A stretch of DNA of 64,000 nucleotides from positions 1-64,000 of the forward strand of contig WLPL01000001.1 of the NCBI GenBank assembly GCA_009698805.1, written 5' to 3'. This DNA comes from Actinomycetota bacterium (GTDB lineage: Bacteria; Actinomycetota; Actinomycetes; Actinomycetales; Microbacteriaceae). The translations under genes and the position numbers were made by a program. The notes beneath the pieces were generated by a model. It searched no databases. It had not been told where the DNA came from and was given only the letters and a program-made list of their open reading frames with translations. Shown one piece after another: positions 1 through 5,495 of this stretch; position 1 is the stretch's first letter, and the number at the start of each line of letters is the position of its first letter.

Positions 1-1
1 C

Positions 2-877
2 GACGAGTATGACGACCGCGCAATGTGCGGTGAGGCTTGGATCATGCCACTCAGCCGCATGGCTTCTTGGGTCGGCCCTGGTGAATACCACCAGACCTTC
101 AACTTCGGCTACATGTTTGCCGACTGGAAGAAGGAAGCCCAGCGCAAAAGCATCACCGAATCACTCGAGGCTTTCGGCAATGTCGGCGCACCGAGCACCT
201 GGGTGTTCTCGAACCACGACGTGATTCGTCACGTTTCTCGCTTCGGAATGGCCAACGGCGTCCCTCAGGGCGACGGAATCGGCCCAAACAGCGAACAACC
301 AGACGAAGCTCGCGGGCTACGTAAGGGTCGCGCGGCAACCGCCTTCATGCTCGGGCTACCCGGTGGCGCCTACCTATACCAAGGTGAAGAACTAGGACTC
401 CCGGAGCACACCACACTCGAAGGTAAGTACCGCGAAGACCCAACCTGGTTCAGAACCAACGGCGAGCGCGTCGGCCGCGACGGCTGCCGCGTTCCCCTGC
501 CCTGGGAGGCTGGCGTCAACGAGTCAAATGGTTTCTCGACCAGCTCAGGCAACGGATGGCTGCCACAGCCAGAGAGCTACAGGCGTTACGCCCGTGACAC
601 GCAAGAAGGTCAACCCGGTTCAACCCTTGAGCTTTACAAATCACTACTGAAGATTCGCAAAGCGCACGACCTCGGTGCCGGCGACTTCTCGTGGGCTCCC
701 GAGTTCGAAAACGAAAACTCGCTCGCCTACATCAACAAGGGCATCTTGGTTCTCGCAAACTTCGAAGGTCACCCGGTCACCTTGCCTGCGGGCGAGATCC
801 TGGTAACCACCCAGCACGACCTCCGCGTTGAGGGCGAGCTTGAGCACGACCAGACCGTTTGGATCAAGCTCAAGTAA
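2..877 (+). CDS. GH13 family alpha-glucosidase, C-terminal part (5' end outside window)
   Basis: ORF open to the window edge; MCGEAW, SNHDVIRH and YLYQGEELGLPEH motifs; closely resembles the complete GH13 protein immediately downstream. Confidence 0.9.
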   Translation, partial: DEYDDRAMCGEAWIMPLSRMASWVGPGEYHQTFNFGYMFADWKKEAQRKSITESLEAFGNVGAPSTWVFSNHDVIRHVSRFGMANGVPQGDGIGPNSEQPDEARGLRKGRAATAFMLGLPGGAYLYQGEELGLPEHTTLEGKYREDPTWFRTNGERVGRDGCRVPLPWEAGVNESNGFSTSSGNGWLPQPESYRRYARDTQEGQPGSTLELYKSLLKIRKAHDLGAGDFSWAPEFENENSLAYINKGILVLANFEGHPVTLPAGEILVTTQHDLRVEGELEHDQTVWIKLK

Positions 878-2541
878 TGCAATTGGTTTCGGGCGCCCAC
901 CACTCACCTTTCATCTCGAGTGAGTGGTGGCGCTCGGCCATCATCTACCAGATCTACCCGCGCTCGTTTGTCGACGGCAACGGCGACGGCATGGGCGACC
1001 TGCCCGGCATCACCTCGCGCCTAGGTTCGCTCGCCTCGCTGGGCATCGACGCCATTTGGCTATCCCCCATTATGCGCTCCCCGCAAAAAGACGCCGGCTA
1101 CGACGTCTCTGACTACACCGATGTCGACCCGCTCTTTGGCACACTTGCCGATTTCGACGCCATGGTGGGCAGGGCACACGAACTCGGGTTGAGAGTCCTC
1201 GTTGATCTCGTGCCAAACCACACCTCAGACCAACACAAATGGTTTCAAGCAGCCCTCGCAGCGCCTAAGGGCTCGCCGGAGCGCGCTTTCTACCACTTCA
1301 AAGAGGGCAAAGGCCTAGACGGCGAACTGCCACCGAACAATTGGCTTTCGATGTTTGGTGGCCCTGCCTGGACGCGCGTCGAAGACGGCTCGTGGTACTG
1401 CCACCTGTTTGATTCAAGCCAGCCAGATCTGAACTGGGAGAACCCCGCGGTTCAAGAGGCGTTCGAAGAGATTTTGCGCTTCTGGCTCGATCGCGAAGTC
1501 GACGGTTTCAGGGTTGACCAACCGCATGCGATGGGCAAGGCCGATGGCTTGCCAGACCACCCCGACGTCGACCGTGCGGGTGCCGGCTTTATTGAGGGCG
1601 AGCCGAGCCCGCCGATGTGGTTTCAAGCATCGGTTCACCCGATCTTCAGGCGCTGGCGTCAAATCTTGGACTCCTACCCCGGCGAGCGCGCAATGTGCGG
1701 CGAGGCTTACGTGCTGCCGCTTAGCTTCATGGCCCTCTGGGTTCGCAACGACGAGTTTCACCAAACCTTCAACTTTCGCTACCTCGACAGCGAGTGGAAG
1801 CCCGAGATTCTCTTTGCCACAATCAACGAATCGTTTAAGGCGTTCGATTCTGTTGGCGCCCCAAGCACCTGGGTGCTTTCGAACCACGACATCATTCGTC
1901 ACGCGTCTCGAATGGGTGGCGTAGTCGGCAGACCAACCGCCTCAGACGGCATTGGCCCGAGCGACCCACAGCCCGACCGCGAGCTAGGTCTTCGGCGAGC
2001 GCGCGGTGCGACCCTGTTCACCCTCGCACTACCCGGCTCAACCTATCTATACCAAGGTGAAGAACTCGGCCTGCCAGAGCACACAACAATCGCCCCGGAG
2101 TTTCGCCAAGACCCGACCTTCTTTAGAACCGGAGGCGAGCGAGTCGGCCGAGACGGTTGCCGCGTGCCATTGCCTTGGGAGTCTGGCGCGGGTGCCGCAA
2201 ACGGGTTCAACCAAACAGGCAAGGCGTGGATTCCGCAACCTGAGCTCTACGCCGAATACTCGCGAGACCAGCAAGAGGGCGTCGAAGGTTCGACGCTCGA
2301 AATGTATAAGCACGCACTCAGGCTCCGCAAAGTGCTGGGCCTAGGCAATGGTTCGTTCGACTGGGAGCCCGAATACACGAACGCTACGACACTCGGCTAC
2401 CGCAACGGCGGCGTCCTTGTGATTCACAACTTTGGCCAAGAAGCCATTGAATTGCCACAAGGCGAGGTCATTGCTTCTAGCGCAAATGCCGCTAGCGTTG
2501 GCATTGAGCCAGACCAGACGGTTTGGTTGAAAACCAAGTAG
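877..2541 (+). CDS. GH13 family alpha-glucosidase (oligo-1,6-/alpha-glucosidase-like)
   Basis: YQIYPRSFVDGNGDGMGDLPGI, GFRVDQPH (nucleophile D), CGEAY (acid/base E), SNHDIIRH. Start at 877 (TAATG overlap with upstream stop) preferred over ORF-track 859. Confidence 0.93.
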   Translation: MQLVSGAHHSPFISSEWWRSAIIYQIYPRSFVDGNGDGMGDLPGITSRLGSLASLGIDAIWLSPIMRSPQKDAGYDVSDYTDVDPLFGTLADFDAMVGRAHELGLRVLVDLVPNHTSDQHKWFQAALAAPKGSPERAFYHFKEGKGLDGELPPNNWLSMFGGPAWTRVEDGSWYCHLFDSSQPDLNWENPAVQEAFEEILRFWLDREVDGFRVDQPHAMGKADGLPDHPDVDRAGAGFIEGEPSPPMWFQASVHPIFRRWRQILDSYPGERAMCGEAYVLPLSFMALWVRNDEFHQTFNFRYLDSEWKPEILFATINESFKAFDSVGAPSTWVLSNHDIIRHASRMGGVVGRPTASDGIGPSDPQPDRELGLRRARGATLFTLALPGSTYLYQGEELGLPEHTTIAPEFRQDPTFFRTGGERVGRDGCRVPLPWESGAGAANGFNQTGKAWIPQPELYAEYSRDQQEGVEGSTLEMYKHALRLRKVLGLGNGSFDWEPEYTNATTLGYRNGGVLVIHNFGQEAIELPQGEVIASSANAASVGIEPDQTVWLKTK

Positions 2542-2552
2542 AGAGGTAAACC

Positions 2553-3362
2553 ATGGCTCGCAAGATCTATGACACCGATCAGCAAATCACCCGCCTGCGC
2601 AGATACAACATCGTCGCCGGCTTCATGCACCTCATTCAGGCAGTCACCTTCGGTTCGTTTCTAGCCTCGCTACCGAGCCAGGTCGACTTTCCGGTAAAGA
2701 TCCAGTACATGACCGGCCCTCCGGGTTCACCACTACCTCCAGAGACCGTGACCCTGTTCAACATCAACCTTGGAGTCGGAGTTGTCGCGTTCCTCGCGAT
2801 GTCTGCATTCTTCCACTTCTTGATCTCGTCGCCATGGTTCTTCAAGCGCTACGCAGCCGGGCTAAAACTAAACCACAACTACTTCAGATGGGTCGAGTAC
2901 TCACTCAGTTCCTCTGTGATGATCTGGCTGATCGCTCAGCTCTGTGGCGTAAACGACATGGCGGCCCTGTTCTCAATCTTCGCGGTCAACGCGTCGATGA
3001 TTATGTTCGGTGCCCTCCAGGAGAAATACGAAAAGCCTGGAAACAAGAAGGCCCTGCCTTTCATCTTTGGTTGCATGACCGGAATCGTTCCTTGGGTCAT
3101 CATCTTCATCTACACGCTGCAGCCAGGAAGCACGAGCGCTCAGAAGGTGCCAGGTTTCGTCATCGGCATCATCGTTTCGCTGTTCATCTTCTTCAACACC
3201 TTCGCCATCAACCAGGCTCTTCAGTACCGCCAGGTTGGCAAGTGGGCTAACTACCTTCGCGGCGAGCGCGCATACATCACGCTCAGCTTGGTAGCCAAGT
3301 CGATTCTTGCTTGGCAGGTGTTCTCGGGAGCAATCGTTCCTGTGCTCACCGGCACCAACTAG
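2553..3362 (+). CDS. Heliorhodopsin
   Basis: 269 aa, seven hydrophobic segments; heliorhodopsin signatures FRWVEYSLSSSVMI (E115 counterion), ANYLRGERAYITLSLVAKSILAWQVFSG (K249 retinal lysine, codon 3297-3299), conserved His26 and His88, internal NASMIMFGALQEKY; RBS-like agagagg upstream. Confidence 0.96.
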   Translation: MARKIYDTDQQITRLRRYNIVAGFMHLIQAVTFGSFLASLPSQVDFPVKIQYMTGPPGSPLPPETVTLFNINLGVGVVAFLAMSAFFHFLISSPWFFKRYAAGLKLNHNYFRWVEYSLSSSVMIWLIAQLCGVNDMAALFSIFAVNASMIMFGALQEKYEKPGNKKALPFIFGCMTGIVPWVIIFIYTLQPGSTSAQKVPGFVIGIIVSLFIFFNTFAINQALQYRQVGKWANYLRGERAYITLSLVAKSILAWQVFSGAIVPVLTGTN

Positions 3363-3384
3363 CAGCAGTTACAGCCACAAAAAG

Positions 3385-3414
3385 AAAACCCCAGCCGTGG
3401 AGGGCTGGGGTTTT
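3385..3414. terminator. Bidirectional rho-independent terminator between heliorhodopsin and tRNA-Tyr
   Basis: aaaaccccagcc-gtggag-ggctggggtttt: 12-bp perfect stem flanked by A/T tracts. Confidence 0.85.
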
Positions 3415-3416
3415 CG

Positions 3417-3498
3417 TGGCTAGTGAGGGATTCGAACCCCCGAAGGCTGAGCCGTCTGATTTACAGTCAGATCCCTTTGGCCGCTAGGGTAACTAGCC
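3417..3498 (-). tRNA. tRNA-Tyr (GTA)
   Basis: Minus-strand cloverleaf with acceptor ggctagt/actagcc, anticodon loop ctGTAaa, T-arm ggttcgaatcc, long class II variable arm; CCA not encoded. Confidence 0.93.
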
Positions 3499-3586
3499 AG
3501 TACGCCTTGGCTCACCTGTAATCAGCTGAGCCAACGCGCTTGGTCAAGAATACCCGAAGTTTTGGTGAAGATGACAATCGGACTAG

Positions 3587-3607
3587 ATTTGTAAGACGCT
3601 TACAAAT
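3587..3607. promoter_or_regulatory. Putative LacI-family operator (autoregulatory)
   Basis: Perfect 9-bp inverted repeat ATTTGTAAG-ACG-CTTACAAAT located 25 nt before the likely ATG at 3633. Confidence 0.7.
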
Positions 3608-3632
3608 ATTTCTGCAAAAACTCGAGGTTTAC

Positions 3633-4664
3633 ATGGTTGGCATTGAACAAGTTGCAGCGCTTGCAGGGGTTTCTACTGCAACGGTCTCTCGCGCACTACG
3701 CGGCAAGGAGCATGTAAGCAAGAAAGCCGAAGAGAAGGTCAAGGCCGCTGCGAAGGAGCTTGGCTACGTTGCTTCCGCCAGCGCCTCGCAGTTGGCATCG
3801 GGTAAAACCCTAAACATTGGCGTGGTTTTGCCGTTCATCGATCGCTGGTTTTTCTCGGTGGTCCTCGAAGGGATCGAAACAACTCTCATCGAGCACGGTT
3901 ACGACCTCACCCTTTACAACCTTTCTGGCGGGCCAGAGCAGCGCAAGAAGGTATTCAACGAATTCTTGATGCGCAAGCGCGTTGACGGCGTATTGACCAT
4001 TGCGGTGAACCCGTCAGACCGCGAACTCGAAAGCCTGAACCGAACCGGCAAGCCGGTCATTGGAATCGGCGGGGCGATCTCTGGAGCGAGAGCCCTAACC
4101 ATCGACGACGTGGCAGCCGGACGGCTCGCGACCGATCACCTACTCTCGCTGGGTCACAAGAAGGTAGGTTTCATCGGCGGGATTCCCGGCAATGACACCG
4201 AGTTCAACCAGCCAGACCTGCGCGAGCTCGGTTATGTGGCCGCGCTCGAGGCGGCCGGGCTCCAACTGCGCGATAACTGGATCGCCCAGGCCAACTACAC
4301 GATCGAGGGTGCCTACAGGGCGGCGAAGCAGATGCTTGGCAACCCGCGTCACGCCCCAACCGCGATTTTCTGCTCCTCAGACGAAATGGGCTTCGGCACC
4401 ATCATGGCCGCCAAGGACCTAGGTCTTCGGGTTCCGCAAGACATCTCGGTGATCGGTTTGGACGACCACGACATGTCGGAGTTCTTTGGCCTTTCGACGA
4501 TCTCGCAGTCGCCTCGGCTTCAGGGCAAGCGTGCGGCCGAGCTTCTTCTGGCGCTGATCGAGGCGGGGACGACCGGTGAAGTCAATGTCGAAGAGGTTAC
4601 CGAGTGGCCGGTTCAACTCGTCGTGCGCTCGTCAACCGCGCGCGCAACTCCACTCGCCCGCTAA
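3633..4664 (+). CDS. LacI family transcriptional regulator
   Basis: N-terminal HTH MVGIEQVAALAGVSTATVSRALRG followed by periplasmic-binding-like domain; internal start 3633 preferred. Confidence 0.93.
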   Translation: MVGIEQVAALAGVSTATVSRALRGKEHVSKKAEEKVKAAAKELGYVASASASQLASGKTLNIGVVLPFIDRWFFSVVLEGIETTLIEHGYDLTLYNLSGGPEQRKKVFNEFLMRKRVDGVLTIAVNPSDRELESLNRTGKPVIGIGGAISGARALTIDDVAAGRLATDHLLSLGHKKVGFIGGIPGNDTEFNQPDLRELGYVAALEAAGLQLRDNWIAQANYTIEGAYRAAKQMLGNPRHAPTAIFCSSDEMGFGTIMAAKDLGLRVPQDISVIGLDDHDMSEFFGLSTISQSPRLQGKRAAELLLALIEAGTTGEVNVEEVTEWPVQLVVRSSTARATPLAR

Positions 4665-5495
4665 CTAAAAATGGATCATCCTGGACGCCAAGTCGAGAGT
4701 CGTATTTTCGGAAAGCTTCTGAGGGTCGGGGCTAAAGTAGTCGACTCTGGCTTTCCAGTTTTTGGCATCGACGTTGATCTTGAAATCAAACCAACCAGAC
4801 GCGCTACCTAGCCACACTTTATTGTCAGATCCAAATGGGCTTCCGACCCCTCGGAACGTCAGTTTCTGCCCCACTATTTCAAATGGAATTTTGTTAGAGA
4901 GTACGTAACGAAGTTTGGAGAGCTCGTAATTCACCACGTCTGGCAAGTTACCCGGTCCAAACGAAAGTTCGGTAGCCATTTGAGCGCGCAGAAAGACGTC
5001 GACTGAAGGTTTCTGCACTTGGCACTGGGTTTTGAACCAAGTTCCAATGTTGAATATCTCGAAACCCCTCAGAGAACATTTGCTTGCATTGAGTCTGACC
5101 AAATTATTAGCGTAAGACACCTGCATCTTGGGGAATACATACTCGCGAGACATTTTTTTTCCCGCAGAGTTCAAGCTTTGGTAGGAAATTTCTTCGTATT
5201 TGAGCCCGTACACCCGCAGAATCTGCTGCACTGGCTTTCTATATGTGGTTAAAACATCTTCTGCGCCACGCTTTTTGTAGAACACAAGCATCGAGTCAAG
5301 GTCTGCACCCAGACGTGCAATCAACCTTTTCGCCGCGAGCTTGGATGATGGACTCCAGTGAACACCTTCCGAAACTTGCACTTCATCCGACCAATTCGCG
5401 AACCCGGAAATTGTAATGGGGTCTGAGACGGCTGGCGCTTCAAAAGTGCTACCCAAAGGCAACAAAACACAGAACAGAGCAAAAAGGAAACGCAT
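4665..5495 (-). CDS. Hypothetical secreted protein
   Basis: 276 aa ORF with N-terminal signal-like segment MRFLFALFCVLLPLGSTFEAPA; no family recognised; directly follows the CHAP gene. Confidence 0.75.
   Translation of the reverse strand: MRFLFALFCVLLPLGSTFEAPAVSDPITISGFANWSDEVQVSEGVHWSPSSKLAAKRLIARLGADLDSMLVFYKKRGAEDVLTTYRKPVQQILRVYGLKYEEISYQSLNSAGKKMSREYVFPKMQVSYANNLVRLNASKCSLRGFEIFNIGTWFKTQCQVQKPSVDVFLRAQMATELSFGPGNLPDVVNYELSKLRYVLSNKIPFEIVGQKLTFRGVGSPFGSDNKVWLGSASGWFDFKINVDAKNWKARVDYFSPDPQKLSENTTLDLASRMIHF

Follow-up and report, generated by a model that had tools for sequence, protein, structure and literature searches.

The window analyzed here is a stretch of 64,000 nucleotides from contig 1 of an assembly of 1.18 Mb that is 86% complete. 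Near its start we found a heliorhodopsin (HeR) gene preceded by two GH13 alpha-glucosidase genes, GHa and GHb (Table 1). The best solved relative of GHb is the alpha-glucosidase 8yif. The GHb stop codon and the spacer that separates it from HeR read TAGAGAGGTAAACC, which includes a purine-rich stretch resembling a ribosome-binding site. The hairpin beyond HeR is listed by the scan on the minus strand, is readable both ways, and sits between HeR and a convergent tRNA gene. A scan of positions 1 to 5000 found no sigma-70-like promoters, using a model that is uninformative for this organism. From this arrangement, HeR is most likely the last gene of a GHa-GHb-HeR operon and would be co-transcribed with the alpha-glucosidase genes. 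An earlier note on this DNA did not include the operon context.

Table 1. Features at the heliorhodopsin locus (positions in the window)
Feature	Position	Strand	Remarks
GHa, second GH13 alpha-glucosidase, 3' part	2..877	+	Contig begins inside gene
GHb, GH13 alpha-glucosidase	859..2541	+	560 aa from first TTG; exact start uncertain
Spacer from GHb stop to HeR ATG	2542..2552	+	11 bp
Heliorhodopsin (HeR) coding sequence	2553..3362	+	269 aa; codons for His26 (2628-2630), His88 (2814-2816), Glu115 (2895-2897), and Lys249 (3297-3299)
Strong intrinsic terminator-like hairpin	3384..3415	.	AAAACCCCAGCC...GGCTGGGGTTTT
tRNA-Tyr	3416..3498	-	Convergent to HeR
LacI-family regulator	3540..4664	+	Domain begins near 3636; may regulate the sugar locus

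The gene downstream of GHb encodes a heliorhodopsin

The HeR reading frame is uninterrupted from its ATG to its stop codon. The protein matched the Pfam Heliorhodopsin profile (PF18761) over the whole domain with a score of 322 bits (E = 2.5e-96). The cut-off for this profile is 26.7 bits, and a chance match is thus excluded. The NCBIfam equivalog for heliorhodopsin, NF038020, gave 349 bits against a cut-off of 100 bits. Six sequences of solved structures matched the protein, and every one is a heliorhodopsin; the top match was 48C12 (E = 2e-88). The Pfam scan reported no match of HeR to Bac_rhodopsin (PF01036) at E ≤ 0.01, and the sole match to that profile in the genome is a protein on another contig.

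The earlier note had named His26, His88, Glu115, and Lys249 as key residues and had placed the protein in the 48C12-like heliorhodopsin family. We checked the codons (CAC, CAC, GAG, and AAG, respectively) and found the helix-3 and helix-7 strings to be present as described. In the alignment to 48C12, the four residues correspond to His23, His80, Glu107, and Lys241; none of them varies across 40 relatives. HeR therefore has both the helix-7 lysine of the Schiff base and the helix-3 glutamate counterion, as well as both histidines of the polar network on the cytoplasmic side. Comparison of HeR with its relatives gave a dN/dS of ~0.1, which indicates that the gene is under purifying selection.

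We built an AlphaFold model from the alignment of 40 relatives (mean pLDDT, 89.3). The model has seven helices, with a beta hairpin (strands 45-52 and 64-72) joining helices 1 and 2. When superposed, it gave a TM score of ~0.88 to 48C12 crystal structures (6su3) and ~0.6 to type-1 rhodopsins. 48C12, which comes from an actinobacterial fosmid (PDB 6su3, 6su4, and 6uh3), was matched over residues 8 to 265 with ~56% identity in the structural alignment. In the prediction with the N terminus inside, lysine and arginine account for 10 of 48 inner-loop residues versus 2 of 54 outer-loop residues. This charge bias, together with homology, fits the inverted topology and lends it indirect support.

The earlier note had proposed a comparison of the Heliorhodopsin and Bac_rhodopsin profiles and a superposition on 48C12, and both bear out its family assignment, as do the second curated profile and the 48C12 sequence match. 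We concluded with near certainty that positions 2553 to 3362 encode a heliorhodopsin. The PF18761 profile, the 48C12 match, the fold, and the lack of a PF01036 match at E ≤ 0.01 rule out a type-1 pump identity. We expect HeR to be a standard member of its family that would bind retinal at Lys249, use Glu115 as the counterion, and absorb green light.

Heliorhodopsins are ordinary in this lineage

The named relatives of the HeR protein at 80 to 96% identity come from MAGs of Micrococcales and Microbacteriaceae, including Rhodoluna. For this reason the genome probably lies in or near Rhodoluna and would belong to a small freshwater bacterium. We found HeR above the cut-off in 43 of the 67 genomes of the genus, a type-1 rhodopsin in 60, and a blh-type retinal-forming enzyme in 5. 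A survey of the Luna-1 subcluster gives comparable figures, with HeR in 60% of Rhodoluna genomes and blh in 4% (PMC12422013). Because HeR is carried by so many genomes of the genus and was already reported in that survey, the gene itself is ordinary for its lineage, and the earlier note's description of it as the most biologically novel element in the window does not hold.

The genome contains the carotenoid gene crtB. A search for blh in its assembly found none, which at 86% completeness is not proof of absence. Since blh was not found, retinal may need an outside source. The genome also encodes a type-1 rhodopsin (G000:C3:16742-17428, minus strand; L124), which has the helix-3 D-T-E motif and is actinorhodopsin-like.

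The GHb-HeR junction is kept in several species

We compared the junction across the genus, with the present genome designated G000. The GHb stop and the HeR ATG are 11 bp apart in six species (G000, G038, G031, G063, G035, and G053); in G051 the distance is 19 bp, and in G055 it is 49 bp. For HeR, comparison of G000 with G035 or G053 gave a dS of ~1.05 to 1.12 and a dN of ~0.13. The 11-bp junction has been kept while dS reached ~1.1, and it is therefore old. In G063, G035, and G053 the downstream side of HeR is unlike that of G000, and the junction is retained.

Elsewhere the arrangement differs. In the subclade of G005, G017, and G032, HeR lies ~430 to 880 bp from GH13, and at least two of these three genomes have a hairpin-like stretch in the spacer; HeR seems to have its own unit there. 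In one further genome, the two genes are 7 kb apart. In the genus, 24 other HeR genes have 1.5 kb or more of sequence ahead of them, and none of these shows a GH13-HeR link; GH13 pairs without HeR are common. In the tree of HeR sequences, a single weakly supported branch (63/49) separates the 13 genomes in which the genes are linked or near each other from the rest; for one of the 13, G056, the sequence ends too near HeR to show whether they are linked. Because the link is restricted to this one group, it may have arisen in a single event, at that level of branch support.

Several further features were seen around HeR. A DnaA-box-like word, TTATCCACA, stands ~40 to 50 bp upstream of HeR in G032, G005, G017, and G056 (L034, L035, L036, and L037), which are the subclade with HeR apart from, or not seen beside, the alpha-glucosidase gene; the word has zero occurrences in the window. 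In several relatives (L112, L113, L114, L115, and L116), a convergent gene for an MMPL-family transporter lies directly downstream of HeR. In G025, which lacks HeR, MFS and MMPL genes come after the alpha-glucosidase genes instead (L158). Outside the genus, alpha-glucosidase homologues lie ~0.4 to 6 kb from HeR in Aurantimicrobium and Salinibacterium (L043, L045, L054, L095, and L103), and in the Aurantimicrobium loci a tRNA-Met/tRNA-Thr pair lies between the two genes. The two genes thus share a wider neighborhood beyond the genus.

The upstream sugar locus carries an operator-like palindrome

Since the window's contig begins inside GHa, we read the maltodextrin ABC genes from another contig of the same assembly, C57, which carries the 5' part of GHa. 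The two contigs overlap by 573 bp (window 1-573 versus G000:C57:5873-6445) at 95.6% identity. As the overlap is not 100% identical, the assembly may mix strains here, and C57 probably represents the same locus from a variant strain. Upstream of GHa, C57 carries divergent genes for a solute-binding protein, two ABC permeases, and a GH13 protein cut by the contig edge. The gene order in the relative G063 is the same, and there the GH13 gene is intact; the nearest solved relatives of its product are maltodextrin glucosidases. The nearest relatives of the C57 solute-binding protein are maltose-binding proteins. The alpha-glucosidase operon is probably divergent from a maltodextrin-type ABC transporter.

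Directly upstream of GHa we found a palindrome, TGTAAACGCTTACA, that resembles a LacI-type operator. Across the assembly, the motif TGNAAACGCTTNCA matches once, at the site before GHa. In eight genomes of the genus, coordinates place this motif 43 to 115 bp ahead of the aligned GH13 starts. Based on the palindrome and this distribution, we infer that the operon is under LacI-type control. A homologue of the window's LacI-family regulator, 53% identical, adjoins an alpha-glucosidase gene in the Salinibacterium loci L095 and L103.

Discussion

We tentatively favor the reading that HeR acts as a retinal-based photosensor, is produced along with the enzymes that break down alpha-glucans, and tunes their activity or uptake in the light. 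According to this model, a LacI-type repressor would control GHa-GHb-HeR within a maltodextrin uptake and breakdown locus, so that the presence of sugar would set whether the photosensor is produced. Light would then alter the cytoplasmic face of HeR, and the altered HeR would tune a partner in the same pathway, either the alpha-glucosidases or the neighboring ABC transporter. We propose such tuning by analogy, because heliorhodopsins have been found to regulate partners encoded alongside them (PMC9529153, PMC11109279). The restriction of the link to one weakly supported group, the apparent separate HeR unit in three genomes, the frequency of GH13 pairs lacking HeR, and the failure to find blh weigh against this reading. 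A more specific form of the proposal, in which a group of Rhodoluna species has a sugar-induced light switch and illuminated HeR, made under a LacI-type repressor, acts directly to alter the activity of alpha-glucosidases or the uptake of maltodextrin, is speculative, and we consider it unlikely as it stands.

Previous work showed that some carbohydrate-metabolism genes are upregulated in light in Rhodoluna lacicola and Aurantimicrobium (PMC8591293). The same work lists R. lacicola with actinorhodopsin, photolyase, and cryptochromes and with no heR, so the light response of its carbohydrate genes need not involve HeR.

Nearly as likely is that HeR is a general photosensor whose partner is encoded elsewhere and that it hitch-hikes at the end of the operon after an insertion or local rearrangement. 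The surroundings of HeR change readily within the genus, and HeR appears to be a separate unit in G005, G017, and G032. GH13 and HeR already share a wider region in Aurantimicrobium and Salinibacterium, so a chance operon could have formed from proximity. However, six species have the 11-bp spacer, and two of these are at a dS of ~1.1, which exceeds what a recent event would leave, and the junction persists in the three genomes in which the downstream side has changed.

Compared with either of these photosensor readings, it is improbable that HeR transports protons or other ions when activated by light and so provides energy or a membrane signal. The giant-virus heliorhodopsin V2HeR3 is reported to transport protons (PMC9448325). 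In contrast, the actinobacterial AbHeR pumped no ions, PMC9529153 states that ion pumping is not seen in the heliorhodopsins it reviews, and for energy the genome already encodes the Bac_rhodopsin protein with the D-T-E pump motif. That HeR is a broken, nonfunctional copy or a misread DTE-type pump has a negligible probability, given its full-length reading frame, the presence of all key residues, the low dN/dS, and the Pfam result for Bac_rhodopsin.

Returning to HeR as a photosensor that tunes alpha-glucan breakdown, we compared it with heliorhodopsins whose partners have been proposed. The earlier note had stated that the family has no agreed function, which is overstated in view of exceptions involving glutamine synthetase, photolyase, and an ABC transporter. 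AbHeR from Actinobacteria bacterium IMCC26103 is co-encoded with glutamine synthetase and activates that enzyme in light (PMC9529153). It resembles HeR in being in an operon with a soluble metabolic enzyme; here, in contrast, the candidate partner would be an alpha-glucosidase or maltodextrin transporter. OcHeR modulates the OmrDE ABC transporter on the cytoplasmic side (PMC11109279). Like OcHeR, HeR lies beside transport genes, but these are of the maltodextrin-importer type and divergent, whereas OmrDE is a multidrug exporter. Another heliorhodopsin is reported to help photolyase (PMC9769723).

48C12, which PMC9529153 assigns to the glutamine synthetase group, is like HeR in its counterion, lysine, two histidines, and fold; HeR differs in coming from a Rhodoluna-like genome and in lying behind alpha-glucosidase genes. 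The Rhodoluna and Aquiluna heliorhodopsins of the Luna-1 subcluster belong to the same lineage as HeR and, like it, occur together with actinorhodopsin and without blh, and the accessible text of that survey makes no mention of an alpha-glucosidase context (PMC12422013). In the titles and abstracts of the literature searched, no heliorhodopsin-alpha-glucosidase operon is described. What appears new here is the alpha-glucosidase as a neighbor, and HeR itself belongs to a known family.

If the proposed tuning is true, alpha-glucan breakdown would represent a new type of partner for heliorhodopsins. Arguments about what heliorhodopsins do still depend mostly on gene neighbors, and the conserved junction would add carbohydrate breakdown as a candidate. 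It would also offer one concrete route by which light could raise sugar metabolism in some freshwater Actinobacteria.
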